Below, one piece after another: positions 15,345 to 36,706 of a stretch of 41,793 bases of DNA. The notes beneath the pieces were generated by a model. That model saw only the letters and a list, made by a program, of their open reading frames with translations. It made no database searches and was not told where the DNA came from. The position numbers and the translations under genes were made by a program. Within the stretch, counting starts at the first letter, position 1. Each line of letters opens with the position of its first letter. Source of the DNA: Gammaproteobacteria bacterium F7 (lineage in GTDB: Bacteria > Pseudomonadota > Gammaproteobacteria > Pseudomonadales > IMCC2047); NCBI GenBank assembly GCA_001593685.1, contig LUKI01000020.1:1-41793 (forward strand), in the 5' to 3' direction.

Positions 15345-16751
15345 TTAGCGAGCCCCTTTACCAAACAGCACGACTTCGACCGTTTGCACTAAAATAAGGA
15401 AATCGAGAAACATACTATGGTTTTTTACATAATAGAGATCAAACTGTAGCTTTTGCCGGGCGTCTTCATCATTAGCTCCGTAGGGATAGCAAAGCTGAGC
15501 CCAACCAGCAATTCCAGGTTTAACCTGATGCCTGGCAGCATAATGCGGAATCCGCTTTTCCAGTTGCTCAACAAATTGCGGGCGCTCCGGACGCGGTCCC
15601 ACAAACGCCATATCGCCCTTCAATACATTAAATATTTGCGGCAACTCATCAATTCGACACCGGCGAATAAAATGGCCGACGCGTGTAACACGACTATCGT
15701 TTTGTTTTGCCCAAACAGCTTTACCATCCTTTTCCGCATCAATACTCATGCTACGAAATTTCAGCACATCAAATGGCTCGCCATTCACGCCAACCCGCTG
15801 TTGTCGATATAAAATGGGGGCCCTGAAACCTTCCTCCAACCAAATGGCTACAATAGTCAGCAGCATCATTGGCCATATTGCTATCAATAAAACAAGGCTG
15901 GCAGCTATATCGAACAAGCGTTTTGTGGTGGCACGTAGAGTGCCGTTATTAAAACCATCGGAAAACACCATCCAACCAGCCGTCACAAATTCAAGCATGA
16001 TACGGCCCGATTCACGCTCGAAAAAATCAACGACATCCAACACATCGGTACCGTTAAGCTTACATTCCAGTAGTTCCTGAACAGGCAAGCCCTTACGCCG
16101 ATCATCAACTGCCACCAGGATTTCATCAATCTGATTCTGATCAACATATTCAAAAATTGAACGATCCAGCTTAATGACTTGATTGCTATCTACAATTTGC
16201 TCTTCACCATCAACTGCAATGAACGCAGCAAAAGAAAATCCGCGTCGGTCAGACTCACGACGCAGACGATCAAGCACCAATCGAGCACGATGCCCAGCAC
16301 CGTAAACAAGTACCCGACGCTTTAAACGCTCCTGGTTCACTCGCCGGTGAAAAAGCATCCGTGACAACGCAATAAAAAGAAAAGTCACAAAAGCCGTTAA
16401 TGCTAAGGCTCCACGCCCTAATAGCAGTTCAGGGAACCAATAGAATACCAGCGACAAGCCCACCGCCATAAACACAAATGCACCAGTGGCTCGAATCCAG
16501 GTACCACTCAACCCTTCACGGGTATGCGGTTGATAAAGCCCCATTGCCCCCATCGAAACGAGCATCACGCCTGAAAAAATCAACGCCCGCGGTAAAACGG
16601 GGCCGATACTATCCCCAACACTACCGGCATCACCTTGGAAGCGTAGGTAAGCACCAATAAAAACAGCCGCAATAAATAGCAGCCCTTCTATAATGGCGAG
16701 CCAGACAAAGGCCGTATGCAGGTGGTGTTTAAATAAACGAACGGTGCCCAC
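15345..16751 (-). CDS. polyprenyl-phosphate sugar-1-phosphate transferase, EpsB_2 type
   Basis: A 468-aa membrane protein that starts polysaccharide repeat-unit assembly by moving a sugar-1-phosphate onto undecaprenyl phosphate. It has four to five N-terminal helices (to about residue 135), a CoA_binding_3/Rossmann-like middle with VLVYGAGHRAR, one more helix (about 275-300), and the bacterial sugar transferase domain. That domain carries LKFRSM, RIDELPQIFNVLKGDM and FVGPRPERP. This long form resembles the TIGR03013 family first linked to PEP-CTERM/exosortase loci, although no exosortase is in the window. GTG start with GGAGA upstream; divergent from the 17016 dehydrogenase. Confidence 0.88.
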   Translation of the reverse strand: MGTVRLFKHHLHTAFVWLAIIEGLLFIAAVFIGAYLRFQGDAGSVGDSIGPVLPRALIFSGVMLVSMGAMGLYQPHTREGLSGTWIRATGAFVFMAVGLSLVFYWFPELLLGRGALALTAFVTFLFIALSRMLFHRRVNQERLKRRVLVYGAGHRARLVLDRLRRESDRRGFSFAAFIAVDGEEQIVDSNQVIKLDRSIFEYVDQNQIDEILVAVDDRRKGLPVQELLECKLNGTDVLDVVDFFERESGRIMLEFVTAGWMVFSDGFNNGTLRATTKRLFDIAASLVLLIAIWPMMLLTIVAIWLEEGFRAPILYRQQRVGVNGEPFDVLKFRSMSIDAEKDGKAVWAKQNDSRVTRVGHFIRRCRIDELPQIFNVLKGDMAFVGPRPERPQFVEQLEKRIPHYAARHQVKPGIAGWAQLCYPYGANDEDARQKLQFDLYYVKNHSMFLDFLILVQTVEVVLFGKGAR

Positions 16752-17015: not shown

Positions 17016-18293
17016 ATGCATACACTTTCGAACACCAAAATTGCAATTATTGGTCTTGGTTACGTTGGACTTCCTCTGGCCGTTGAGTTCGGTAAGCACT
17101 ACCCAACCATCGGTTTTGATATCAACAGCCAACGCATTATTGAACTGCGTGACGGTGTCGATAACACGCTCGAAGTGGAGTCTGATGAGCTCAAAGCATC
17201 ACCACAATTAAGCTTTGCTGACAATATCAGTGCAATCAAGGAGTGTAATTGTTACATCGTCACAGTACCAACCCCTGTCGACAAGCACCGCCAACCTGAC
17301 CTGTCTCCACTCCGTTCGGCAAGCAAAGCGGTTGCAAAGGTCATCCAGAAAGGCGATATCGTCATCTATGAATCCACTGTCTACCCCGGCGCAACCGAAG
17401 AGGACTGCATTCCCATTATCGAAGCAGAAACCGGTCTGAAATTTAATGTCGATTTTTATGCTGGTTACAGCCCTGAGCGTATCAACCCTGGCGATAAAGA
17501 GCACCGTGTCACCACTATTTTAAAGGTGACCTCTGGCTCAACGCCAGAAATCGCCGACTATGTTGACGACCTCTATGCCAGCATCATCACCGCTGGAACG
17601 CACAAAGCCAGCTCAATAAAAGTCGCAGAAGCAGCTAAAGTAATTGAAAACACTCAGCGAGATCTCAATATTGCCCTGGTCAACGAGCTTGCATTAATTT
17701 TCCATCGTCTAGGAATCGATACCTTAGAAGTATTGGAAGCTGCGGGAACCAAGTGGAACTTCCTCCCCTTCCGCCCAGGCTTGGTAGGCGGCCACTGCAT
17801 CAGTGTCGACCCTTACTATCTAACCCATAAAGCACAAGAAATCGGTTATAACCCAGAGGTTATACTTGCAGGTCGCCGTATAAACGATGGTATGGGCTCA
17901 CATGTTGTAGAGCGCGTCGTCAAACTCATGACTCAACGTCGAATCCACGTGGTTGATTCAAAAATTCTTATTTTAGGGCTGGCCTTTAAAGAAAACTGCC
18001 CAGACCTTCGAAACACCCGCGTAGTCGATATAATCGACGAACTTAATGGCTATCACGCCAAAATTGACGTTTATGATCCTTGGGTAAGTCCAGAAGAAGC
18101 TAATGAAGAATATGGCATTAAACTTGTTGAAGCTCCTGCTTCCGGTGTTTATGACGCCATTATTCTTGCAGTGGGCCATAACCAATTTAAAGAGCTTGGC
18201 AGCGAAGGCATTCGAGCTTTTGGAAAAGAAAACACAGTCCTGTTTGACGTAAAGTACGCACTACCTAAAGACAGCGTAGATGCACGGCTTTAA
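17016..18293 (+). CDS. UDP-N-acetylhexosamine 6-dehydrogenase (TviB/WbpO/WbpA type)
   Basis: A 425-aa NAD-dependent enzyme oxidising C6 of a UDP-HexNAc twice to the uronic acid. It has the N-terminal GLGYVG at 13-18, the central dimer-forming domain with [15 protein letters not shown], and catalytic C261 in [12 protein letters not shown]. The C-terminal UDP-binding domain has [17 protein letters not shown]. The sequence is closest in feel to TviB/WbpO, which acts on UDP-GlcNAc or UDP-GalNAc. Its product UDP-GlcNAcA is the substrate expected by the WbpB-D-E set at 33972-36706. It is the only plus-strand gene in the locus and has its own promoter. Confidence 0.88.
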
Positions 18294-20495: not shown

Positions 20496-20867
20496 CTATA
20501 GCACCTTGGACGCAAAACATCCTTTGAACACTTCATTAATATCCTCATGAAACCCGACCTCAAAGGTTAATTGTTCTAATATATCCCCACTGTCTACTCC
20601 TTCATCTACCAAATGGAGTGTAAAACCCATATGCGTCTCACCATGAATCATGGTCCAAGTAAATGCATGCATGCTTCGGTAATAGGGAATTATGAATACT
20701 GAAAAAATATGTTCAGTTAAAAGCTCGTGCGGTATCAACTTGCCATATGAAATCATGATGACAAATAACTTTTCTGCCGGGATCAACTCAACACTTTCAA
20801 ATACTTCGAAATGCTTACTATATTCAGCATGTATAATTGAACTTGATGTTAATATGAGTTTTCTCAT
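20496..20867 (-). CDS. compact formyltransferase-like protein
   Basis: A 123-aa protein matching part of the formyltransferase fold. Recognisable are SYGKLIP (residues 40-46), WTMIHGETHMGFTLHLVDEG and D92 in VDSGDIL, the usual third catalytic residue. The first ~70 residues of the normal Rossmann half are missing or compressed. The N-x-H signature expected before the P-x-x-R-G turn is replaced by VFIIPYYRS. It may be a non-catalytic relative or a variant enzyme. Its ATG overlaps the stop of the FemAB-like gene (ATGA), so it is translationally coupled. Confidence 0.6.
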   Translation of the reverse strand: MRKLILTSSSIIHAEYSKHFEVFESVELIPAEKLFVIMISYGKLIPHELLTEHIFSVFIIPYYRSMHAFTWTMIHGETHMGFTLHLVDEGVDSGDILEQLTFEVGFHEDINEVFKGCFASKVL

Positions 20868-21978: not shown

Positions 21979-22151
21979 TTAATTATCGATCAAACAGAGC
22001 ATCATAGATGCTTTGTCATCTCCGTTATAATTTACCACTACTCACAAACTAAATTTCGGCTGAACATACCTTTTCCTGATAGAAAAGGGCCAGATAAAAA
22101 GCCTTTTGATGCAACGGTTTTTGAAACCAAGGCTTTAACTTTACCAACCAT
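21979..22151 (-). pseudogene. small decayed coding remnant after the GT-C gene
   Basis: An ATG overlaps the upstream gene's stop (TAATG, 22149-22153) and opens a 37-codon frame to 22038, MVGKVKALVSK... ending FSRNLVCE. A second frame shifted by two bases then reads GTG-started VVNYNGDDKASMML... to a stop at 21979. Both pieces look protein-like and the coupled start suggests a former gene in the operon, now frameshifted and truncated. The first piece is faintly like the N-terminus of polysaccharide deacetylases. Chance open frames are a real alternative. Confidence 0.3.
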
Positions 22152-23671
22152 TAGACTTCGTCTTCAATGAATGTATCTCTCAGTGTGGGGTACGTTTCGC
22201 GAGCCCATACGGGAATTCGATTCCCGGGTGCCCAACCCACTACCTTAAGAAAAATATATTTTTCATTTTCATGAACAACCGAGAAAACAGACTGATCCAC
22301 TTGCTTATAAAAATCGGGCCAATAGGGTTTGTTCAACAGCATACCACCGAGGTTCCAATCGTTTACTGCCTGCTCAACCGTTGTCCTCAGAACCGGGTAA
22401 TAAGGTTCTACCCACAGAATTCCATATCCATGCGCTCCCCACAATACTGCTTTCCCCGTACGACCTGAAATTTCATCCGAAATAGTTATCGGAACAACCA
22501 TCACTCGATCAATGTCCGATTCGGAGATCTTTGTCAGCATTTCATCAAGATCTTCGTCTTTTTCCTGGAATTTTACAGAAAGGTATCGATAGAATTTAAC
22601 CATGGCGGCGACGGCAATCATCAACATGGCAAACAATAGGCAGACCGTAATAATATTGGGTTCATTCGAACTCGTAAAGAGCCCCATTATCAGTATTGAC
22701 GGGAGATAGTACGTATAGGACCGACCATTTCCCCAACAAATTAAAAAGGGAACAAAGGTTGTCAACAGGGCGAAACCAACAGTTGCCGATGCGATAACCA
22801 ACCAAAATGGAGTAATGCCCGTATGACTGAAGAATAATGGAAGGAAGGGAAACAACCCGAATATCATCGTAAGTTTTGTAACCACAGTCCTCACAGTAGT
22901 TGGGCTCTCTCGCTCCTGGCCGTATATAGGAGATTCTTTGATCTGGTGGGCTGAGAGCAGATGACGGTTTCTGTTCCAGAACCGTGTCGTCTCGGCATGG
23001 GCAACCAGATGCTTTTTCAATCCCAGGCACGAATAGGCAAATGCGACAACAGCAACAAAGACCACGGGGAGTAGAAAAGCGCCATGACTCAAGGCCAGTA
23101 CAGTCAATAAAAAAATAAGCAGTTGCATGGTGAGCTTGTGCGTAAAGACTATCGAAAGGCATAGAAGGCAGATACCCACCACCAGCATCACATCAAAACT
23201 TTGACCGACAAACAGGTATAGGAGAAAGATCAGAACATCAAAGAGAATTGCCCCTACAATCCTTGAATTCAGCTGATTGTCATAGGTAACGAGAATTGGC
23301 GAAGAAAGGTAAACCAAAAGAGCCAACAATACCGTATTTATCCCGGGGTCGAATCCGCAAAGGCGAACCATGACATACATGAGGCACAAGCGCATGATCG
23401 ATAATACTTGTGTCACTAAGAAACCATGAGAAAACAAGCCGTCCGGCATAAGGCTGATCAACTTTCCATAGACAGGCAGATACCACTGTCGTACATCCAG
23501 CAAGTACTCTTTCAGAACAGGGGGAAACTCGTGTGTATGCCTCAGTTGGCGGCGATACTTCTGCCAAAAATAATCATCGACGGCCACAACCTTTGCTTTT
23601 GGCAGGAGAATTCCTCTAGCCAGCAGCAACACCGCACATGCAGCCATCAAAATGTATGAAATATAATCCAC
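22151..23671 (-). CDS. GT-C-type membrane glycosyltransferase-like protein
   Basis: A 506-aa polytopic protein with about ten membrane helices. A short first loop carries an acidic DDYFWQKY motif near residue 32, as in GT-C glycosyltransferases that use polyprenyl-linked donors. A soluble C-terminal domain of about 140 residues (from ~365) follows, probably periplasmic. It could add a side-chain sugar or act as a Wzy-like polymerase; no specific family is claimed. GTG start with AAAGGA about 11 bases upstream. It follows the hexapeptide acyltransferase gene by 72 bp and is closed by the terminator at 21873-21898. Confidence 0.6.
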   Translation of the reverse strand: MDYISYILMAACAVLLLARGILLPKAKVVAVDDYFWQKYRRQLRHTHEFPPVLKEYLLDVRQWYLPVYGKLISLMPDGLFSHGFLVTQVLSIMRLCLMYVMVRLCGFDPGINTVLLALLVYLSSPILVTYDNQLNSRIVGAILFDVLIFLLYLFVGQSFDVMLVVGICLLCLSIVFTHKLTMQLLIFLLTVLALSHGAFLLPVVFVAVVAFAYSCLGLKKHLVAHAETTRFWNRNRHLLSAHQIKESPIYGQERESPTTVRTVVTKLTMIFGLFPFLPLFFSHTGITPFWLVIASATVGFALLTTFVPFLICWGNGRSYTYYLPSILIMGLFTSSNEPNIITVCLLFAMLMIAVAAMVKFYRYLSVKFQEKDEDLDEMLTKISESDIDRVMVVPITISDEISGRTGKAVLWGAHGYGILWVEPYYPVLRTTVEQAVNDWNLGGMLLNKPYWPDFYKQVDQSVFSVVHENEKYIFLKVVGWAPGNRIPVWARETYPTLRDTFIEDEV

Positions 23672-24681: not shown

Positions 24682-25878
24682 TCAGGTTAACGAAGTTTGC
24701 TTCGTCGCCATTTCCATCACAGAAATTATAGCTTCACAAGAAATCTCAATTTCATCAGCGGTAAGTGTCGGGTGAACCAAAAACATGAGTGAAGTCTCAC
24801 CCAGAGCTTTTGCCGTTGGCAAATCGCTTACATCACCGTATTCAGTTCCATCAAACGCTTTCTCCAGATAAACCTCGGAACAAGAACCGGAAAAACAAGG
24901 CACTCCCTGATGGCTGATTTCAGACATAATTCTGTCACGGCCCCAGCCAGGTTTTAAAAATTCAGGTCGAACGAAAACATAACATTTATAAGCCGCATGA
25001 CCAATATTGTCGGGAACTTCTGGTACACGCAAAGCTTGGCATTTTCGTGCAGCACGCCATATCCGATTAGCATTAAACTGCCGCTTTTTCGTCCAAGCTG
25101 CTAGTTGCTTGAGCTGATGCCGACCCAAAACAGCCTGCATTTCTGTCATACGCCAGTTGGTACCGAAAGAGTCATGCAGCCATCTAAACCCCTGAGGATG
25201 ATCATGCCGATAAACTGCATCCCAGGATTTACCATGATCTTTATAAGACCACATCTTCGACCAGAGGGCTTTATCATTAGTCGTCACCATACCACCTTCA
25301 CCGCCAGTGGTAATAATCTTGTCCTGGCAAAAGGAAAATGCCGCCACATGACCCATAGATCCAACCTGCTTACCATTAAGCGTCGCCCCATGCGCCTGCG
25401 CACAGTCCTCAATAACCTTGATATTCCGCTCTTCGGCAAAGCTCATTAACGCCTCAACGTCACAGGGCCAGCCAGCAAGGTGCACCGCAATGATCGCTTT
25501 GGTTTTATCGGTTACCACCTTTTTTATGGACTCTACAGTCAGGTTCTGACTGCTCTCATCCACATCGGCAAATACTGGGGTTGCACCGCGAACTACTATG
25601 CAACTGGCTGTCGCAATAAAGGTTCGGCTGGTTGTAATCACCTCATCCCCTGGGCCAACCCCCATGGCAAAAAGCGCCAGTTCAAGTGCGACAGTGCCAT
25701 TTGCAACCGCAATACCATGATCACAGCCAACGTATTCTGCATATTCACTCTCAAACCTGCGTCCTTGCTCACCTGTCCAGTAATTCACCTTGCCTGAACG
25801 CAGTACGTCTGCAACTGCATTAACTTGCTCTTCATCAAATGATGGCCAGGGAGAGAATGAGCTGGGTTGACCCGACAT
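24682..25878 (-). CDS. PglE/DegT-family sugar aminotransferase
   Basis: A 398-aa PLP-dependent aminotransferase of the DegT/DnrJ/EryC1/StrS family. The PLP lysine is K187 in FCQDKIITTGGEGG, and the PLP-ring Asp is D158 in VIEDCAQAHGA. The WPSFDEEQVNAVADVLRSGKVNYWTG start is typical. In PglE the reaction converts a UDP-4-keto-6-deoxy-GlcNAc to the 4-amino sugar. The neighbouring PglD-, PglC- and PglA-like genes support that role. ATG start, 2 bp after the PglD-like stop. The partner 4,6-dehydratase (PglF) is not in the window. Confidence 0.85.
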   Translation of the reverse strand: MSGQPSSFSPWPSFDEEQVNAVADVLRSGKVNYWTGEQGRRFESEYAEYVGCDHGIAVANGTVALELALFAMGVGPGDEVITTSRTFIATASCIVVRGATPVFADVDESSQNLTVESIKKVVTDKTKAIIAVHLAGWPCDVEALMSFAEERNIKVIEDCAQAHGATLNGKQVGSMGHVAAFSFCQDKIITTGGEGGMVTTNDKALWSKMWSYKDHGKSWDAVYRHDHPQGFRWLHDSFGTNWRMTEMQAVLGRHQLKQLAAWTKKRQFNANRIWRAARKCQALRVPEVPDNIGHAAYKCYVFVRPEFLKPGWGRDRIMSEISHQGVPCFSGSCSEVYLEKAFDGTEYGDVSDLPTAKALGETSLMFLVHPTLTADEIEISCEAIISVMEMATKQTSLT

Positions 25879-25880
25879 AA

Positions 25881-26528
25881 TTACTTAATCACCTTTGCTG
25901 GAGTACCTACGACAGATACATTATCTTCAACATCATTGAGTACTGTCGCTCCAGCACCCACCGTAACATTTTTTCCGATTTTCACATTAGGATGGATTGT
26001 GGCTCCGGCACCAATGAGAGTCAGATCACCGACTAAAACACCACCACAAATTGTTACACCCGGTGCGACATGAACACTGTCTCCAATACGGCAGTCATGA
26101 TCAACAGTTGCTCCCGTATTAATAATCGTGTTTTTTCCAATTACTGAGTCAGAGTTGACGACACTCCCAGCCATAGCAACACTTCCGTCGCCAATGGTCA
26201 CTCCACGTGCTAACTGGCAAGAAGGGTGCACTACTGCCCTCGCCAACTTGAAGCCCTTCAGTTCCACCCAGGCAGCAATTTCTTGACGAACTCGGTTATC
26301 CCCGATCGCAATCAGGCAGTCGCCGCAACCCTTTGCTGTCAGGCCGGCTTTACCACCGGTTACTCGATAGCCATAGATATTCTGCCCCTTAATGGACGGG
26401 TTATCATCAATCAGGCAGGCCACCTCATAGCGCCCCTGATTTTCCAAAACATCAATCACCACCTTTGCATGTCCACTCGCTCCGAAAACTATAACGGGCT
26501 TCTTTTCTTGTTTGGCGCTCTGGGGCAT
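25881..26528 (-). CDS. PglD/NeuD-like sugar N/O-acetyltransferase
   Basis: A 215-aa protein. The N-terminal Rossmann-like nucleotide-sugar-binding part has VIVFGASGHAKVV, and a left-handed beta-helix of hexapeptide repeats follows (from ~100). The beta-helix carries the catalytic His in ATVDHDCRIGD and ends GTPAKVIK. PglD acetylates UDP-4-amino-4,6-dideoxy-GlcNAc to UDP-N,N'-diacetylbacillosamine. The stop of the PglC-like gene and the ATG overlap as TGATG; a GTG three bases upstream is an alternative start. Confidence 0.85.
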   Translation of the reverse strand: MPQSAKQEKKPVIVFGASGHAKVVIDVLENQGRYEVACLIDDNPSIKGQNIYGYRVTGGKAGLTAKGCGDCLIAIGDNRVRQEIAAWVELKGFKLARAVVHPSCQLARGVTIGDGSVAMAGSVVNSDSVIGKNTIINTGATVDHDCRIGDSVHVAPGVTICGGVLVGDLTLIGAGATIHPNVKIGKNVTVGAGATVLNDVEDNVSVVGTPAKVIK

Positions 26529-27139
26529 CACTGTTTATCCTGCGAGTTTTTTGGTTGGCCCTTGAACTTTTCCATAGTGACATGCCCTTCCTGACTGACC
26601 CCCTCAGAAGCAACAACTTTCAGCAATGTCATCCACAAAATTTTCAAATCCAGACCGAAGGACTCATGATCAACATACCATACATCATATTTGAACTTTT
26701 CTTCCCAGCTAACAGCATTCCTGCCATTAACCTGAGCCCAGCCAGTAATTCCCGGTCGCACGGTATGCCGCCTCGCCTGTTCCTCTGAGTAAAGCGGCAA
26801 ATACTCCATCAGTAAGGGTCTTGGACCAACAAAACTCAACTCCCCCTTGAGCACATTAAATAACTGAGGCAGCTCATCCAGGCTGTATTTACGTAGGATG
26901 GAGCCTAACCTCGTCATCCGATCTTTATCCGGCAACAATTCTCCTTTTGTATCGTACCGAGTAGCCATCGTCCTGAACTTGTAAATCTTAAACGGCTTAC
27001 CATGGAGTCCGGGCCTTTGCTGACAAAAAAGTACTGGACGGCCGTGATATAACCAGACCAGGCACATAACCAGCAAAATAACAGGCCACAGAAACAACAA
27101 TGCTGTCAGTGCCACTATGAAATCAAACGCTCTTTTCAT
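26528..27139 (-). CDS. PglC-like initiating sugar-phosphate transferase
   Basis: A 203-aa short sugar transferase with one N-terminal hydrophobic segment (about residues 5-27) and the catalytic core only. Visible motifs are KIYKFRTM, the acidic [24 protein letters not shown] and [15 protein letters not shown]. PglC-type enzymes transfer a bacillosamine-type phosphosugar to undecaprenyl phosphate, starting glycan assembly at the inner membrane. ATG start overlaps the GT4 stop by 4 bp (ATGA). It is the second initiating transferase of the locus. Confidence 0.9.
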
Positions 27140-28260
27140 AGCCTTTCCCGATAATAATCAAGCCACGCATTAGCCAAAGTTTCACTAGAAAAATCTCGAA
27201 GCGCCCGTTCCCTTGCATTTTGTGCTAGGTACTCTCGCAGTTCAGTGTCAGTAATCAGGTTTTTCATGTGTTTACAAAGCTCTTCATCATTCCCTGCTTT
27301 GAAAAGCAACCCCGTCCGACCATCTTGAATCGCGTCCTCAACACCATAGATTTTTGAACCAATCGAGGGGATACCGGCGGCGGCCGCTTCAATAACCACG
27401 CTACCAAAACCTTCTCGGTAACTGGGTAAACATAAAACATCTGCTGCAGCCATATAGGCTTCTGGGTCAGCAGAGAAACCCACGAAGTGAGCTCTTCCCA
27501 GGTTACTACCTAGTAAGCCTTTCATTTGCAATTGCATGCCAGCCTCATCGGGGCCTACAACCAATAAATGGGGCTTTGTACCAGCAAGCTTTGAGAAAGC
27601 AGTTGCCAAATCCAGCACCCCTTTGTCCCGGTTGAGGCGTCCAATAAAGAGATATACCGTATCACTCTCGTCAATACCTAGCTCACCTCTGATCCTCTGG
27701 CGCGCCGTTTCATCAGGCTTAAAACGTGCCGTATCAACACCTGAAATTGAGCCTTTAGCCAACACCGATGAACTTGTTTTTCTGACAACTCTTTCGTCTA
27801 ATAGAAACTGTCGTTGTGAAACACTGTCAACCAGCACTTCAGTCGCTAGTAGAGAAATCGCCCTATCCATTTGTTTAAAAAACCACCGACTTAGTCCCTG
27901 TCGTGTAGCCCAAACCTGGCCAGTAAAAATATGTAGTCTTAAGCTTACACCGGTAATTGAGGAGGCAAGCATTGCCAGCAGTCCGGCCTTTGGAGTCACC
28001 GAATGGACTGCCTCGAAATCGTACTTTCTGAAAATCTGAATCAGACAAAATAAAGCCGACAAATCACTCAGAGGAGAAATTTTTCGCTCGATAGCTACAG
28101 GAATGAGGTTGACGTTTCCCAAGCTTGCCGAGATATTTTCAGGGTCTCCATTAAAAACCAGATACACCTGATAATGCTCACAGAGCCTCTTTATTGGCTC
28201 AACTAAAAAAGCATTTATCGTCATTGGGCTAGATACGACAAGACAAATTTTTTTCTTCAA
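27136..28260 (-). CDS. GT4-family glycosyltransferase, PglA-like
   Basis: A 374-aa GT-B-fold enzyme. The N-terminal Rossmann half includes [16 protein letters not shown]. The C-terminal half has [18 protein letters not shown] and the E-x7-E region [20 protein letters not shown] that binds the nucleotide-sugar phosphate. It probably adds the second sugar to the lipid-linked starter. The start is TTG overlapping the fusion gene's TGA (TTGA), with AGGTT seven bases upstream. It is tightly packed in the operon with the PglC-, PglD- and PglE-like genes. Confidence 0.85.
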
Positions 28261-31130
28261 CTTTGAACCTGCCTTATCAGCATTTTATTCTGGCGTAGAG
28301 ATCTACTATAACCAGCTAAAAGCATTATATAAGTGAATACCGTCATAATAACACCCGGCACACTTTCAAAATTCACACTCACTAACAGGGTTAAAAATAA
28401 TAACCAGTTGAGGAATAAAGTCACCGTATCAAACAAACCTATATGCCGATACCTAGCCAGTGACAGAACGAGAATAGCAGTCGAAACAATCAAAGATATA
28501 GAGGCTCCCAAAGCAACCCCAGAGACGCCCATATATTTCATAAAAAACAAACTGGCCCCAATATTCACTATCAGTCCAAATAGGGCGGCTAATAAGATTG
28601 TCAGTACATGTTTTGTGGCGATAGCAAATTTCAATAGCAACACATTACAAGCAAAGAAAGGTATTTGTATAACCGCAAACTGCATTACTTTGGATACGGC
28701 GCTCACATCGTCGGGACCAAAGCCCTTTCCTACAAACACCATGCCCACAATTTGCTCCGAATATACAAAAAAGATCAAACTTAAAGGGGTAGCCAGACAA
28801 GTCAAAAACACTAAAAACGCCGACAACTCTCTCCTTGCTGTAACCACATGATTTTTTACAATTAAAACAGAAAAATATGGCAGCATAACGGCAGTAATAG
28901 CCGCACTAAAAATTCCAGTTATTAATAAAACAATTTTACTCCCTAAATTAAATACCGACACACCTCCTTCAGGCAGCAACATCGCAAGCATGGTGTTCAC
29001 CAGTAGTGCAATACTTACAAAGAAAGCCGAAGCTGTTAGAGGGGAATATTGTGAGCCTAACTGAGCCAAAGAAACTATCTTATGAATATTGAACCTAGGA
29101 ACAAGGAAGAACCCCTGTTTTTTAACATAAATATGTAATATCAGAAGATTAATTAATTGCCCAACGACCATGCCCAACATTGCTGCCTGAACGCCATAAC
29201 TATCACCGAAGATAACTACGGTAAGTATTGCAACTATTGGGACTACTAGCTGTGCGGTGCCTGTCATCACAGCCTTGCCCAAAGCATTTAATACCGCATT
29301 CCCTATAATTACTGGTCCACTAAAAAGGAGTATTGGCAATGAGAGCGCTGTTAGCTTTTGGATTTGTTCAATGTTTACAGCCGAACTACTATCAATCAAA
29401 GAGGGCAATACAAAAGGAACAGCAAAATACAGAAGAACGCATATTAAAGACAGAGCTATCAACACTACAGCTAATAAATTAGAAATTGATACTTGTACTT
29501 CTTGATTCTTGGCTTTTTCCTTCAGCATCAGGAAAAAGGGTGTAAATGCCATACCCAAAGGAATACTGGCAATTGAGACAATAGTCATGGGGATTAACAG
29601 TGCAACAAAAAAACTATCTAACTCAGCACCAAGTCCAAAAGTATTTGCTAATAGAATGTCCCTATAGAAAAACCCAATAAAGCCCAAAAATGTTAGTCCT
29701 GAAACATAAAGTCCTGAGCCAACAGCCTTCTTACGCTTAGATTTAATATCTTCACCGGTACTAGCATCAGCCAGAAATAAATCGTGTTTAGGCAAGAGTG
29801 TATTAATAATCTTTTCCAAAACCCCTTTTCTACTTAGAAAGGTATACCACCCCAAGACCCCAATAGCCATAAAGAGTAAAAGAAATGGGTACCGCACGCG
29901 GTGGAGGGTACCCAAATTACCTATCGTAAAACCATAAATTCCAAGGTAACAGAGCGCAAAGGTCACACAAAGCAACATGCCTTTGGAGCGATTATATTTG
30001 AGCGCTAGAAAAAAACCCGGGATGAGAAGATACCAGGCAAAAATTTCCATAACACCCACTAATCGTGCCATACTCAGCGAACTAAGCCAGGTATCAGGAA
30101 AGGGCGCGAGTAGCGAAATTGCAAACACCCTAGGCATATAAGAAACGATATCCCCTACATTGTTTGGCAACTCATCTCTATCAATATTAGAGGGCGCATC
30201 AAAGCTTGCACACATCAAACCAGCACGTGTCCTTGCAGCAGTTTCGGCATATTTTTCCACTGATGAGGGCAAAAATGAGGTTGGTTCCCAACGCCACTCT
30301 GAGCAAAGCTCATTCTGAGCACTACCATCCCAATTTTTGTAATGATTAGGGCTCTGAGCGGTTACAAAAAGTACCGAAAAGACAAACCAGACAAATATGC
30401 AAACCAGAAAATATTTCCCTTGCCGAGGCCAAGAGGATCTATACGCAGCAAACAAAGCCGTTATAGCAATCCAAGCAGCTGTCGCCACCACCAGAAAAAC
30501 AATGCTATAGGGGCGCACAAACAGGATTAAAAGAGCACCAACAAAACTACCCACCACAAAGATCATAGCTGACCGAAAGTTCTGAGGCTGATAGAAAAAA
30601 CGGAGCCAGACATACAGCACCAGCAACGTACCGGTTATCGCATAACCGTCCTTATGCACTTGGGCATACCAATTAAGAGTTGACGGAAGCACGACAAACA
30701 AGATGGCTGCGATAAACCCGGCATTTCGACCTATATGGCCCGGATACAATAATTGAACGACAAGAAAAATAAGTACACCAGAGCTCGCATGTAACGCTGC
30801 ATTAATTGGTAGAATTACTGAAGGATCCACCCCAAGCAAATCATATAACACGGCAAGAACAGCAACATTACCAGTAGCTCCCTGAGCGCTTGGCCAAACG
30901 GTATCCAAGGACCAGCCAAGAACCTCAATATTGGCAGCCATTTCGACAGCTATCTGGTGAAAATAGATCGCATCATTATTCAGCAAGCCATAGCCTGCAT
31001 GCATCGAAGGGATATTGGGTAGTATCAATTTTTGGAACAACAAAGCAATCACAACAGTGAAACAAAATAGAGTGATCCAAAGAGACAAGCCTATCGATAG
31101 GGACTGTTTAGTATTTTGGTTTTTAATCAT
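28257..31130 (-). CDS. GT-C-like membrane protein fused to a MurJ/MviN-like flippase
   Basis: One 957-aa reading frame with two membrane halves. The first half (to about residue 455) resembles GT-C glycosyltransferases. It has an acidic first loop (LLNNDAIYFHQIA), a PSTLNWYAQVHKDGYAI stretch, a Cys-containing loop and GNLGTLHRVRYPFLLL. A polar linker (about 456-475, GEDIKSKRKK) leads to a 14-helix-type MurJ/MviN flippase (FYRDILLANTFGLGAELDSFFVALLIP; SLPILLFSGPVIIGNAVLNALG). The frame opens at a TTG at 31265, but the ATG at 31130 has AAGGA at good spacing and is preferred. It overlaps the GT4 gene by 4 bp. The gene is AT-rich. Either half alone would be unremarkable; their union is unusual. 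Confidence 0.75.
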   Translation of the reverse strand: MIKNQNTKQSLSIGLSLWITLFCFTVVIALLFQKLILPNIPSMHAGYGLLNNDAIYFHQIAVEMAANIEVLGWSLDTVWPSAQGATGNVAVLAVLYDLLGVDPSVILPINAALHASSGVLIFLVVQLLYPGHIGRNAGFIAAILFVVLPSTLNWYAQVHKDGYAITGTLLVLYVWLRFFYQPQNFRSAMIFVVGSFVGALLILFVRPYSIVFLVVATAAWIAITALFAAYRSSWPRQGKYFLVCIFVWFVFSVLFVTAQSPNHYKNWDGSAQNELCSEWRWEPTSFLPSSVEKYAETAARTRAGLMCASFDAPSNIDRDELPNNVGDIVSYMPRVFAISLLAPFPDTWLSSLSMARLVGVMEIFAWYLLIPGFFLALKYNRSKGMLLCVTFALCYLGIYGFTIGNLGTLHRVRYPFLLLFMAIGVLGWYTFLSRKGVLEKIINTLLPKHDLFLADASTGEDIKSKRKKAVGSGLYVSGLTFLGFIGFFYRDILLANTFGLGAELDSFFVALLIPMTIVSIASIPLGMAFTPFFLMLKEKAKNQEVQVSISNLLAVVLIALSLICVLLYFAVPFVLPSLIDSSSAVNIEQIQKLTALSLPILLFSGPVIIGNAVLNALGKAVMTGTAQLVVPIVAILTVVIFGDSYGVQAAMLGMVVGQLINLLILHIYVKKQGFFLVPRFNIHKIVSLAQLGSQYSPLTASAFFVSIALLVNTMLAMLLPEGGVSVFNLGSKIVLLITGIFSAAITAVMLPYFSVLIVKNHVVTARRELSAFLVFLTCLATPLSLIFFVYSEQIVGMVFVGKGFGPDDVSAVSKVMQFAVIQIPFFACNVLLLKFAIATKHVLTILLAALFGLIVNIGASLFFMKYMGVSGVALGASISLIVSTAILVLSLARYRHIGLFDTVTLFLNWLLFLTLLVSVNFESVPGVIMTVFTYIMLLAGYSRSLRQNKMLIRQVQS

Positions 31131-33971: not shown

Positions 33972-35060
33972 CTATGAGAGTGTCTGTTTTAGTGCTTGGC
34001 AAACAGTTTCTATTTGTTCATCTGTAAGATAAGGGTGCATTGGCAAACTCATAACCACGTCGGCAATTTTATCACCAACCGGCAGGTCAGCTGAGTCATC
34101 AGACAAGGCCGTTTGTTTATTCAAAGGAATAGGGTAATGCACGGCTGTAGGAATCCCTTCTTCTTTAAGTTTTTCCTGAACAGCTTCACGGTTTTCAAGG
34201 CGAATTGTATATTGTGCCCAAGCACTAGTGTTGTGAGATTCCAAATATGGCGTCGTATCAATACCCGCCTCATTTAACAATGATGTGTAACCTTCTGCCA
34301 CTTGTTGCCGTAATTCCAGTTCTCTGGAAAACATCTCGAGTTTAGGGAGAAGAATAGCTGCTTGAATCGTATCAAGCCTGCTATTAACACCCACCAAAGC
34401 GTGGTGATAACGTCTATCCTGGCCATGGTTAGCTATTTGGCGCATAACCGTTGCCAATTCATCATCATTGGTAAAAATAGCCCCACCATCACCGTAACAA
34501 CCTAGAGGCTTGGCGGGAAAGAAAGAGGTCGTCGCCACAGTGCTCAGATTACAGGAGCGTTCTCCCTTATAAGTCGCACCAAAACTTTGCGCAGCATCTT
34601 CGATGACTGGTAACCCATGCTTATCCGCAATCGCATTAATGGCATCAAAATCTGCACACTGTCCGTACAATGACACAGGCATAATCGCCTTGGTACGAGA
34701 AGTGATAGCCGCCTCAATTTTTAATGGATCAATATTATAAGTACGGGAATCAACATCCACATAAACTGGTTTGGCGCCTAATAAAGCCACCGTTTCTGCA
34801 GTGGCGATAAAGGTAAAACCAGGAACAATAACTTCATCACCAGGACCAATGCCAAAAGCCATTTGGGCAATTTGAAGAGCATCTGTCCCATTTGCACAAG
34901 CGATACAATGTTTTACTCCCGCAAATTCAGATAGTTTTTGTTCAAGCTCGCGAACTTCAGGCCCCAAAATGTATTGCCCATGTGCCAGTACTCGCTGAAT
35001 ACCCGCATCTATTTCCTTTTTAATCAGCGCCTGCTGCGCAGCAAGATCAACAAATTGCAT
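33972..35060 (-). CDS. wbpE: UDP-3-keto-GlcNAcA aminotransferase, WbpE-like
   Basis: A 362-aa DegT-family aminotransferase. PLP lysine K184 lies in FFPAKPLGCYGDGG and D155 in VIEDAAQSFGA. In Pseudomonas O-antigen synthesis, WbpE aminates the 3-keto sugar made by WbpB, using glutamate and regenerating 2-oxoglutarate. The gene order WbpB-WbpD-WbpE with 2-3 bp spacing is seen here, which makes the specific call good. ATG start. Confidence 0.87.
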   Translation of the reverse strand: MQFVDLAAQQALIKKEIDAGIQRVLAHGQYILGPEVRELEQKLSEFAGVKHCIACANGTDALQIAQMAFGIGPGDEVIVPGFTFIATAETVALLGAKPVYVDVDSRTYNIDPLKIEAAITSRTKAIMPVSLYGQCADFDAINAIADKHGLPVIEDAAQSFGATYKGERSCNLSTVATTSFFPAKPLGCYGDGGAIFTNDDELATVMRQIANHGQDRRYHHALVGVNSRLDTIQAAILLPKLEMFSRELELRQQVAEGYTSLLNEAGIDTTPYLESHNTSAWAQYTIRLENREAVQEKLKEEGIPTAVHYPIPLNKQTALSDDSADLPVGDKIADVVMSLPMHPYLTDEQIETVCQALKQTLS

Positions 35061-35063
35061 TAT

Positions 35064-35654
35064 CTATTCACTCTCTTTATGTAAGACACCATCATTCAGC
35101 AGATAGCGTGCGCCTGTATTCGGACAAATAGCCTCACCATCTCCTTCAACTGGTAAGTTCAACTGTTCACCAAACTCACTCATCCAACCTATTTGCCGTG
35201 AAGGAACCCCTACTACCAAGGCATAGGGTAAAACGTCTTTATTTACAACCGTACCAGCTCCAACAAAAGAGTATTTCCCAATAGTTACTCCACAGACGAT
35301 CGTACAGTTAGCCCCCAAAGTAGCGCCCTTTTTAACCAAAGTATCCTTATATTGATCCTTGCGTTCAATCAAAGAACGCGGGTTATAGACATTGGTGAAA
35401 ACCATGCTCGGCCCACAAAAAACCCCCTCTTCGAGATACACATTATCGTAAACAGACACATTATTCTGAATTTTACAGTGATCGCCAATGGTAACTTTAT
35501 TACCCACAAAAACATTTTGCCCTAATGACACCCCCTCACCAATTTGCGCGCCACTGCAAACATGAGCCCAATGCCAGATCCGACTATTTGGGCCAATTCT
35601 GGCACCATTGTCTACAATAGCCGTCTCATGAATCATTACGTCTTTAAAAGACAC
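35064..35654 (-). CDS. wbpD: UDP-3-amino-GlcNAcA N-acetyltransferase, WbpD-like
   Basis: A 196-aa hexapeptide-repeat acetyltransferase. The [34 protein letters not shown] and [19 protein letters not shown] segments correspond closely to WbpD. WbpD acetylates the 3-amino group to give UDP-2,3-diacetamido-2,3-dideoxy-glucuronic acid. The start GTG (35654) has GGAG eight bases upstream; an in-frame ATG at 35636 is a weaker alternative. It lies 2 bp from the WbpB-like stop. Confidence 0.9.
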
Positions 35655-35656
35655 TC

Positions 35657-36706
35657 TTAATACTCCAATGGTAAGGAAACTGTTTTACCGTCTCTCGCAG
35701 AAAGGTAAGCAGCAATTAATACTTCAAGTGATTTCAGACCCTCTCGCCCATCTGTTTCCGGCTCAGCTTCACCACGAAGAACATCAATTACATTTTTATA
35801 ATAAAGTGGGTGCCCAAAGCCATAAACAGACGTGGTTTCATAATTTGCTGCCGCAATCTCAGTATCGTAATCTTTCGCTTCAGCAAAATCCCACTCCTGA
35901 ATTTCGTTCACCGCCATACCGCCGATTCGTACAGTACCTTCCTCACCTAAAATGGTAATAGATCCCTCAAGGTTTTTCGGATAGGTACACATTGTCACGG
36001 CCATTGAGCCTAGGGCGCCATTTCGCCAACGAACATTAAGGACACCAGTATCCTCAACTTCAATATTGCGGTGTGTTGTCGTCATAGCTTGAACATCTGC
36101 AATAGGCCCTATTATCCAATCTAATAAATCAACATAGTGGCTAGCCTGATTCATAAACGCGCCACCATCAAGCTCCCATGTGCCTCGCCACTTACCCTGA
36201 TCGTAATATTCCTGCGGTCTTGTCCAAAAAACATTCAGGTGAACCATATAAATTTTACCGAAGCGGTCTTCATCTACGGCTCGTTTAAGTAGTTGTAAAG
36301 TAGTATTACGCCTGTTTTGCTTAACCACTAACAAACGCACCTTGTTCTCGTCGCACGCTTTGACCATTCGCACACCATCAGACCAGCGAGTAGCCATCGG
36401 CTTTTCACTAACAACATGCACACCATGCCTTGCTGCAAGTATCGCTTGATCGGGATGAAGCCCACTCGGCGAACAAAGAGCCACCACATCTATTGACTCG
36501 TTGCTCAACATGTCTTCTAAGTGAGAATACCCAGGAACCTCATATTCTTTTTTCGCTATTTCAAGCGCACGTATATCATTATCACAAACAGCGGTGAGAC
36601 ATAAATGTTCAGGGTATTTTTCAATGGCAGCAAAATGATTTTTTGCAATACGCCCGCAGCCAACCACTGCTATATTGATTTTCCTTTCTTTGACAACTGG
36701 GTACAT
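35657..36706 (-). CDS. wbpB: UDP-GlcNAcA 3-dehydrogenase, WbpB-like (Gfo/Idh/MocA family)
   Basis: A 349-aa oxidoreductase with N-terminal NAD-binding GCGRIA (16-21), the family's EKP motif (101-103) and a C-terminal beta-sheet domain with [18 protein letters not shown]. WbpB oxidises C3 of UDP-GlcNAcA and, in coupling with WbpE, recycles NADH through 2-oxoglutarate. It is the first gene of the long minus-strand run, so its promoter should lie in 36707-36989. ATG start with GGTGG upstream. Confidence 0.9.

Follow-up and report, generated by a model that had tools for sequence, protein, structure and literature searches.

In Wzx/Wzy systems, repeat units carried on undecaprenyl diphosphate (undecaprenyl-PP) are flipped across the membrane by Wzx (PF01943) and then assembled in the periplasm by separate proteins, and mutant complementation experiments have led to the proposal that Wzx, Wzy and Wzz form a complex (PMC10030265). 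Here we describe a gene on the minus strand of a 41,793-nucleotide stretch of DNA from Gammaproteobacteria bacterium F7 (the window, the entire contig C20 of a 2.58-Mb draft genome with 214 contigs and 86% completeness), whose product is predicted to do the same job with flippase and transferase on one chain. The archaeal protein AglD (PMC5898192) is similar in joining a glycosyltransferase to a flippase-like domain of the MprF type, but that domain belongs to a different flippase superfamily. The initial annotation of the window knew of no family with the present architecture, and no description of a GT-C/MurJ fusion was found in the open-access literature, which is weak evidence as most subscription journals lay outside the scope. 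Only AglD and MprF emerged as loose parallels among flippase fusions, and the glycosyltransferase of AglD is presumably not of the GT-C type. On the polymerase side, the bacterial families GT122-GT135 have a GT-C fold, face the periplasm and conserve an Arg and an Asp, as is also predicted for the N-terminal half of our protein (N half), and the GT-C3 polymerases have in addition a conserved His and an N-terminal loop (PMC10920833). That account mentions no fusion to a flippase, and the N half is matched by neither the EpsG nor the Wzy_C profile.

The gene encodes 957 amino acids plus a stop codon, and the initial annotation's claim of an uninterrupted frame holds, with no internal stop. Its ATG start at 31130 is preceded by AAGGA, and its stop codon shares bases with the TTG at which the next gene, a GT4 glycosyltransferase, begins; an alternative, longer mechanical frame begins at TTG, 31265. 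By hydropathy the protein has about 24 membrane helices, 10 up to residue ~433 and 14 from residue ~470 (in the N half, we read residues 89-103 as a juxtamembrane helix and added one helix at 160-178), which bears out the earlier description of two polytopic modules. A short polar linker is likewise present between them, although it lies at residues ~434-469, slightly upstream of the 456-475 first proposed. The parts of the gene are as follows.

28257..31130, minus strand: fused gene, GT-C_A-like transferase half plus MurJ-superfamily flippase half; an open frame with full-length fused homologues in four other genomes
29805..31130, minus strand: N half, residues 1-442, GT-C_A (PMT_2-like) by hhalign to PMT_2 and by topology, ~10 predicted transmembrane (TM) helices
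29724..29831, minus strand: linker, residues 434-469, charged (9 K/R and 5 D/E), predicted cytoplasmic
28260..29723, minus strand: C-terminal half (C half), residues 470-957, MurJ-superfamily flippase by Pfam, PDB and tree clade, 14 predicted TM helices

A phylum-wide genome scan with the N half as query found the same architecture in a second class of the phylum, possibly the Zetaproteobacteria, in five further genomes from two genera of one family (5 of the 78 genomes searched from that class). Four of these homologues span both halves completely, each in a single open frame (G485, 966 amino acids; G611, 969; G601, 974; G677, 974), while the fifth (G662, 593 amino acids) ends at a contig end. 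Insertions and deletions in the linker between fused homologues are whole codons, identity falls at the linker, and third-position changes predominate in both halves between close relatives. Because the frame is uninterrupted in four independently assembled genomes, the fusion is confirmed, at the level of sequence, as a real gene rather than an assembly error, and the lost stop or frameshift that had been suspected near 29,740-29,800 is excluded by the same comparison. Two other long MurJ frames among the translated open reading frames, in G420 (960 amino acids) and G333 (1268 amino acids), were set aside, as they apparently reflect frame overlap or read-through. Viral contigs and plasmids searched with the N half gave no match, and a PHROGs search returned nothing useful.

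The N half has no sequence match in Pfam, NCBIfam or the PDB, the last searched with an N-half profile. Whereas Pfam itself is silent, hhalign recovers GT-C_A homology over the conserved first module: a profile of seven N-half homologues scored 82-94% against PMT_2 for seven of eight templates over columns 17-254 (10% for the eighth, L115), and the N-half sequence of the window alone scored 81%. Held-out true PMT_2 members reached 87-97%, reversed profiles at most 1.3% and MurJ 0.7%. Profiles of the Wzy_C, EpsG, WaaL and MurJ types stayed below 1% against the N half, and the STT3 family of Pfam (GT66, STT3/PglB) gave no match. As there was no Pfam match to a Wzy polymerase and hhalign gave only 0.04-0.4% for Wzy_C and EpsG (EpsG being represented by one sequence), a polymerase of the EpsG or Wzy_C type by sequence was rejected. 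With its reversed, negative and held-out controls, the profile-profile comparison supports the earlier GT-C-like label and argues for a distant relationship of the N half to GT-C_A/PMT_2, the alignment spanning the first ~250 residues and residues ~254-433 having no established PMT_2 homology. The N half is thus like the GT-C_A glycosyltransferases (PMT_2, PF13231; ArnT- and PMT-type) in these first 250 residues, with an acidic residue in loop 1 and a second acid. Unlike them, it lies below Pfam detection, has a distinct C-terminal NxGTxxRxRYPF motif and carries an attached flippase.

By the positive-inside rule, the conserved polar residues D53, H58, K160/D161, R206 and R411/R413 would all lie on the periplasmic side, with D53 as the acidic residue in the first periplasmic loop.

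30957..30974, minus strand: D53-H58 (NNDAIYFH), first periplasmic loop; D53 is unchanged across 15 relatives and lines up with the 'DE' motif of GT-C enzymes
30648..30653, minus strand: K160-D161, where the fourth TM helix begins on the periplasmic side; D161 falls on the second conserved PMT_2 acid in the alignment
30513..30515, minus strand: R206 of an R-P-Y motif, periplasmic side; invariant in seven close homologues
29892..29900, minus strand: R411-V-R413 of the NxGTxxRxRYPF motif, periplasmic loop; G407 and R411 are invariant in 15 relatives

Residues D53, P103, P149, G407 and R411 and the NxGTxxRxRYPF motif are also common to an unnamed, wide family of ~400-amino-acid membrane proteins (L077, L078, L079, L147-L151 and L153), several of which adjoin sugar-nucleotide or glycosyltransferase genes. 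This family is a candidate polymerase or GT-C family.

The C half is matched by the Pfam MurJ profile (PF03023) over residues 494-938, with an E value of 2.7e-40 and coverage of profile columns 1-446 of 451, and a C-half profile matched solved MurJ structures in the PDB with an E value of 2.2e-30. This full-length match and the 14 helices place it in the MurJ/MOP superfamily. The C half shares with the MurJ/MviN lipid II flippase (PF03023, TIGR01695; PDB 5t77 and 7waw) the predicted fold, the 14 helices and R24/D25/D39. It differs in having lost R18 and R52, in carrying Lys at the R270 site, in scoring below the cut-off of the NCBIfam MurJ equivalog TIGR01695 (151.5 against 235.6 bits) and in being fused to another enzyme. 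The four arginines R18, R24, R52 and R270, reported to be essential in Escherichia coli MurJ (PMC4790310, PMC9973255), are all present in 68 of 68 canonical MurJ rows, whereas F, R, V and K occupy these sites in all six fused proteins; D25 and D39 are retained.

29658..29663, minus strand: R490-D491, equivalent in the MurJ alignment to MurJ R24-D25 (kept); the R18 site is F484
28935..28937, minus strand: K732, at the MurJ R270 site in the alignment (R to K)

An ordinary murJ is present elsewhere in the source genome, on contig C66 (480 bits), and in the phylogenetic tree its product falls among canonical MurJ proteins, apart from the fused C halves. The latter form one clade with long branches (support 100/99), whose sister group (100/99) consists of standalone flippases from polysaccharide loci, one of which, in G130, lies between Wzc/Wzz and Wzy_C genes. 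These standalone MurJ-like flippases (G114, G355, G130 and G440) resemble the fused C halves in having lost R52 and in having Lys at the R270 site; unlike the fusion, they are unfused proteins of ~457-473 amino acids whose profile match ends at about column 430, before the last two helices. About 9 kb from the flippase of G114 there is also a short EpsG-like fragment (G114:C86:9547-9666, L112; a 79-amino-acid frame), which may be a broken or missed polymerase gene. As the lipid II signature residues are lost, the fused C halves belong with the polysaccharide-locus clade and the genome has a separate MurJ, the C half is most likely a flippase of undecaprenyl-PP-linked glycans of MurJ descent and not a lipid II flippase; a duplicate of canonical MurJ is ruled out by the residues and the tree. 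The MurJ/MviN-like label of the initial annotation therefore stands for the superfamily but not for MurJ proper.

At all six loci, a common five-gene block opens with the fusion, followed in order by GT4, PglC-like, PglD-like and PglE-like genes. In the window, these four and a separate Wzx-like flippase, whose presence the initial annotation had noted correctly, are as follows.

27136..28260, minus strand: GT4 glycosyltransferase (PF00534), second block gene, start overlapping the fusion; 51-54% identity and same order in six loci
26528..27139, minus strand: PglC-like initiating phosphoglycosyl transferase (PGT), from NCBIfam sugar-transferase models; 69-72% identity across the block
25881..26531, minus strand: PglD-like sugar N-acetyltransferase (PF17836, PglD_N), in the conserved block
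24682..25878, minus strand: PglE-like DegT aminotransferase (PF01041), final gene of the block; 51-55% identity
18323..19594, minus strand: separate Wzx-type flippase (PF01943) in the same locus

Identities between the block of the window (24682-31130) and those of the other class (L066-L070) span 34-72%, hinting that the two classes exchanged a five-gene glycan module horizontally. Within the fusion, the N half is 62% identical and the C half 34% identical to the fusions of the other class, the drop falling exactly at the linker, while within that class both halves are about equally conserved; the neighbouring block genes cover the same 34-72% span. Across the linker (29724-29831), the G+C content in the window also declines, from 0.44 to 0.39. 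The flippase half may have been swapped, or related flippases may have been fused on two separate occasions; the common clade of the fused C halves, on its long branches, and their conserved C-terminal helix pair argue, if not decisively, for a single origin.

Taken as a whole, the protein may unite a flippase with a GT-C transferase, the latter most likely a polymerase, for the undecaprenyl-PP-linked oligosaccharide of a Wzx/Wzy-type surface polysaccharide, a reading to which we give a probability of about 0.5. The PglE- and PglD-like enzymes would produce a sugar nucleotide of the 2,4-diamino type, with a 4-amino-4,6-dideoxy sugar, which the PglC-like PGT would load onto undecaprenyl phosphate and the GT4 enzyme would extend. 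The undecaprenyl-PP oligosaccharide so formed would be flipped by the C half to the periplasmic leaflet, and the N half, with its predicted GT-C_A fold, would transfer it there, most likely as a repeat-unit polymerase. The tether could raise the local concentration and pair the flippase with its own transferase. Beyond gene identity, we infer these steps from the named families, and with them the substrate, the direction, the polymerase role, the physical hand-over, the coupling of transfer to flipping and the exact reaction. The more specific proposal of a natural Wzx-Wzy-type fusion, in which one chain both flips and polymerizes the repeat unit and the GT-C_A enzyme is a polymerase of an undescribed kind, is a tentative one.

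Evidence for the polymerase role comes from loci in which the halves are separate. Each half occurs unfused in other polysaccharide loci, in keeping with the earlier remark that such modules are normally separate proteins; the fusion is nonetheless conserved across genomes. Standalone N halves in G254 (32% identity, 449 amino acids) and G387 (~24% identity) each occur in the sampled loci with one PF01943 flippase, followed in G254 by a GT4 gene, and a Wzy_C protein was not seen in either of these sampled loci. In unfused loci, the C-half type would be the flippase, and the N-half type would fill the place of the polymerase. At the G601 locus, where the contig starts close by, no polytopic protein other than the fusion was found on the contig, and the only Wzy_C protein of the genome that holds the window is on another contig. 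It is because of the standalone-N-half loci, the G601 locus and this off-contig Wzy_C protein that we favor a polymerase role, with moderate confidence.

Several observations weigh against it. A Wzy_C-type (or candidate) protein adjoins PglE in G485, G611 and G662, the window encodes another nine-helix protein (22151-23671), and a separate Wzx is present in both the window and G485 loci. The N-half fold comes from sequence profiles only, and a single-sequence AlphaFold2 model of this half has a pLDDT of 44. Furthermore, most characterized GT-C_A enzymes take lipid-P-monosaccharides as donors, GT66 being the lipid-PP exception (PMC10920833), and with a donor of this usual kind the N half would be a side-sugar transferase and not a polymerase. 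It would then attach a single sugar, taken from an undecaprenyl-P-sugar, to the repeat unit as soon as the C half had flipped that unit, leaving polymerization to another protein. This is the strongest competing explanation, if an unlikely one: the PMT_2-type homology, the donor preference of most GT-C_A families (PMC10920833) and the Wzy_C proteins in some loci of the other class agree with it, but no undecaprenyl-P-sugar synthase is recognized in the conserved block, and none of the polytopic proteins found at the standalone-N-half loci is another candidate for the polymerase.

An improbable alternative to the polymerase reading would have the N half act, like PglB of the Campylobacter pgl system, as an oligosaccharyl transferase or ligase that passes the flipped glycan to protein or lipid. 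The block does resemble pgl in its PglC, PglD, PglE, GT4, flippase and GT-C_A components; however, there is no Pfam oligosaccharyl transferase match, no protein acceptor gene was seen, and the rest of the locus resembles one for O-antigen or capsule. We hold at similarly long odds that one half is inactive and serves the other only as a scaffold or docking module. Two observations could be read in this way: compared with the other fusions, the C half of the window has diverged far more (34% identity) than the N half (62%), and the locus has a separate Wzx. However, both halves keep their motifs, their full helix sets and third-position-biased changes between close relatives. Finally, the possibility that two adjacent genes were joined by an error of assembly or sequencing, a natural concern in so fragmented a draft, is rejected as having practically no chance, given the uninterrupted fusions in four other assemblies and the codon-length linker indels.

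Other genes of the window bear on the wider locus. The nine-helix protein at 22151-23671 (506 amino acids, ~9 helices, no Pfam or NCBIfam family) had been called a separate GT-C protein by the initial annotation; a polytopic protein does exist there, but its similarity to PMT_2 is weak (7-10% in hhalign), which makes it only a possible further GT-C enzyme. Two initiating PGTs are encoded in the one locus, a large WbaP/WcaJ-type enzyme at 15345-16751 and the small PglC-type enzyme at 26528-27139, as are two flippases, and perhaps two glycans are made from it. A UDP-sugar dehydrogenase (17016-18293), a DegT aminotransferase (33972-35060), a hexapeptide acetyltransferase (35064-35654) and a Gfo/Idh oxidoreductase (35657-36706) resemble, by family, a WbpA/WbpE/WbpD/WbpB set, which would serve to make a di-N-acetylated uronic acid. 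A 123-amino-acid frame at 20496-20867 resembles a short formyltransferase-like protein and may be a truncated or broken gene. Outside the glycan locus, a GNAT-type protein at 3651-4457 matches FeeM N-acyl amino acid synthase.

If the N half does act as proposed, this conserved natural fusion would be direct evolutionary evidence for the coupling of flippase and polymerase. It would offer a single protein for structural study of the hand-over of lipid-linked glycans, and a natural test for any physical coupling between flipping and the joining of sugars. The fusion also ties an unnamed putative GT-C family of polysaccharide loci, with its D, KD, R and NxGTxxRxRYPF motifs, to flippases, which aids the annotation of such gene clusters.

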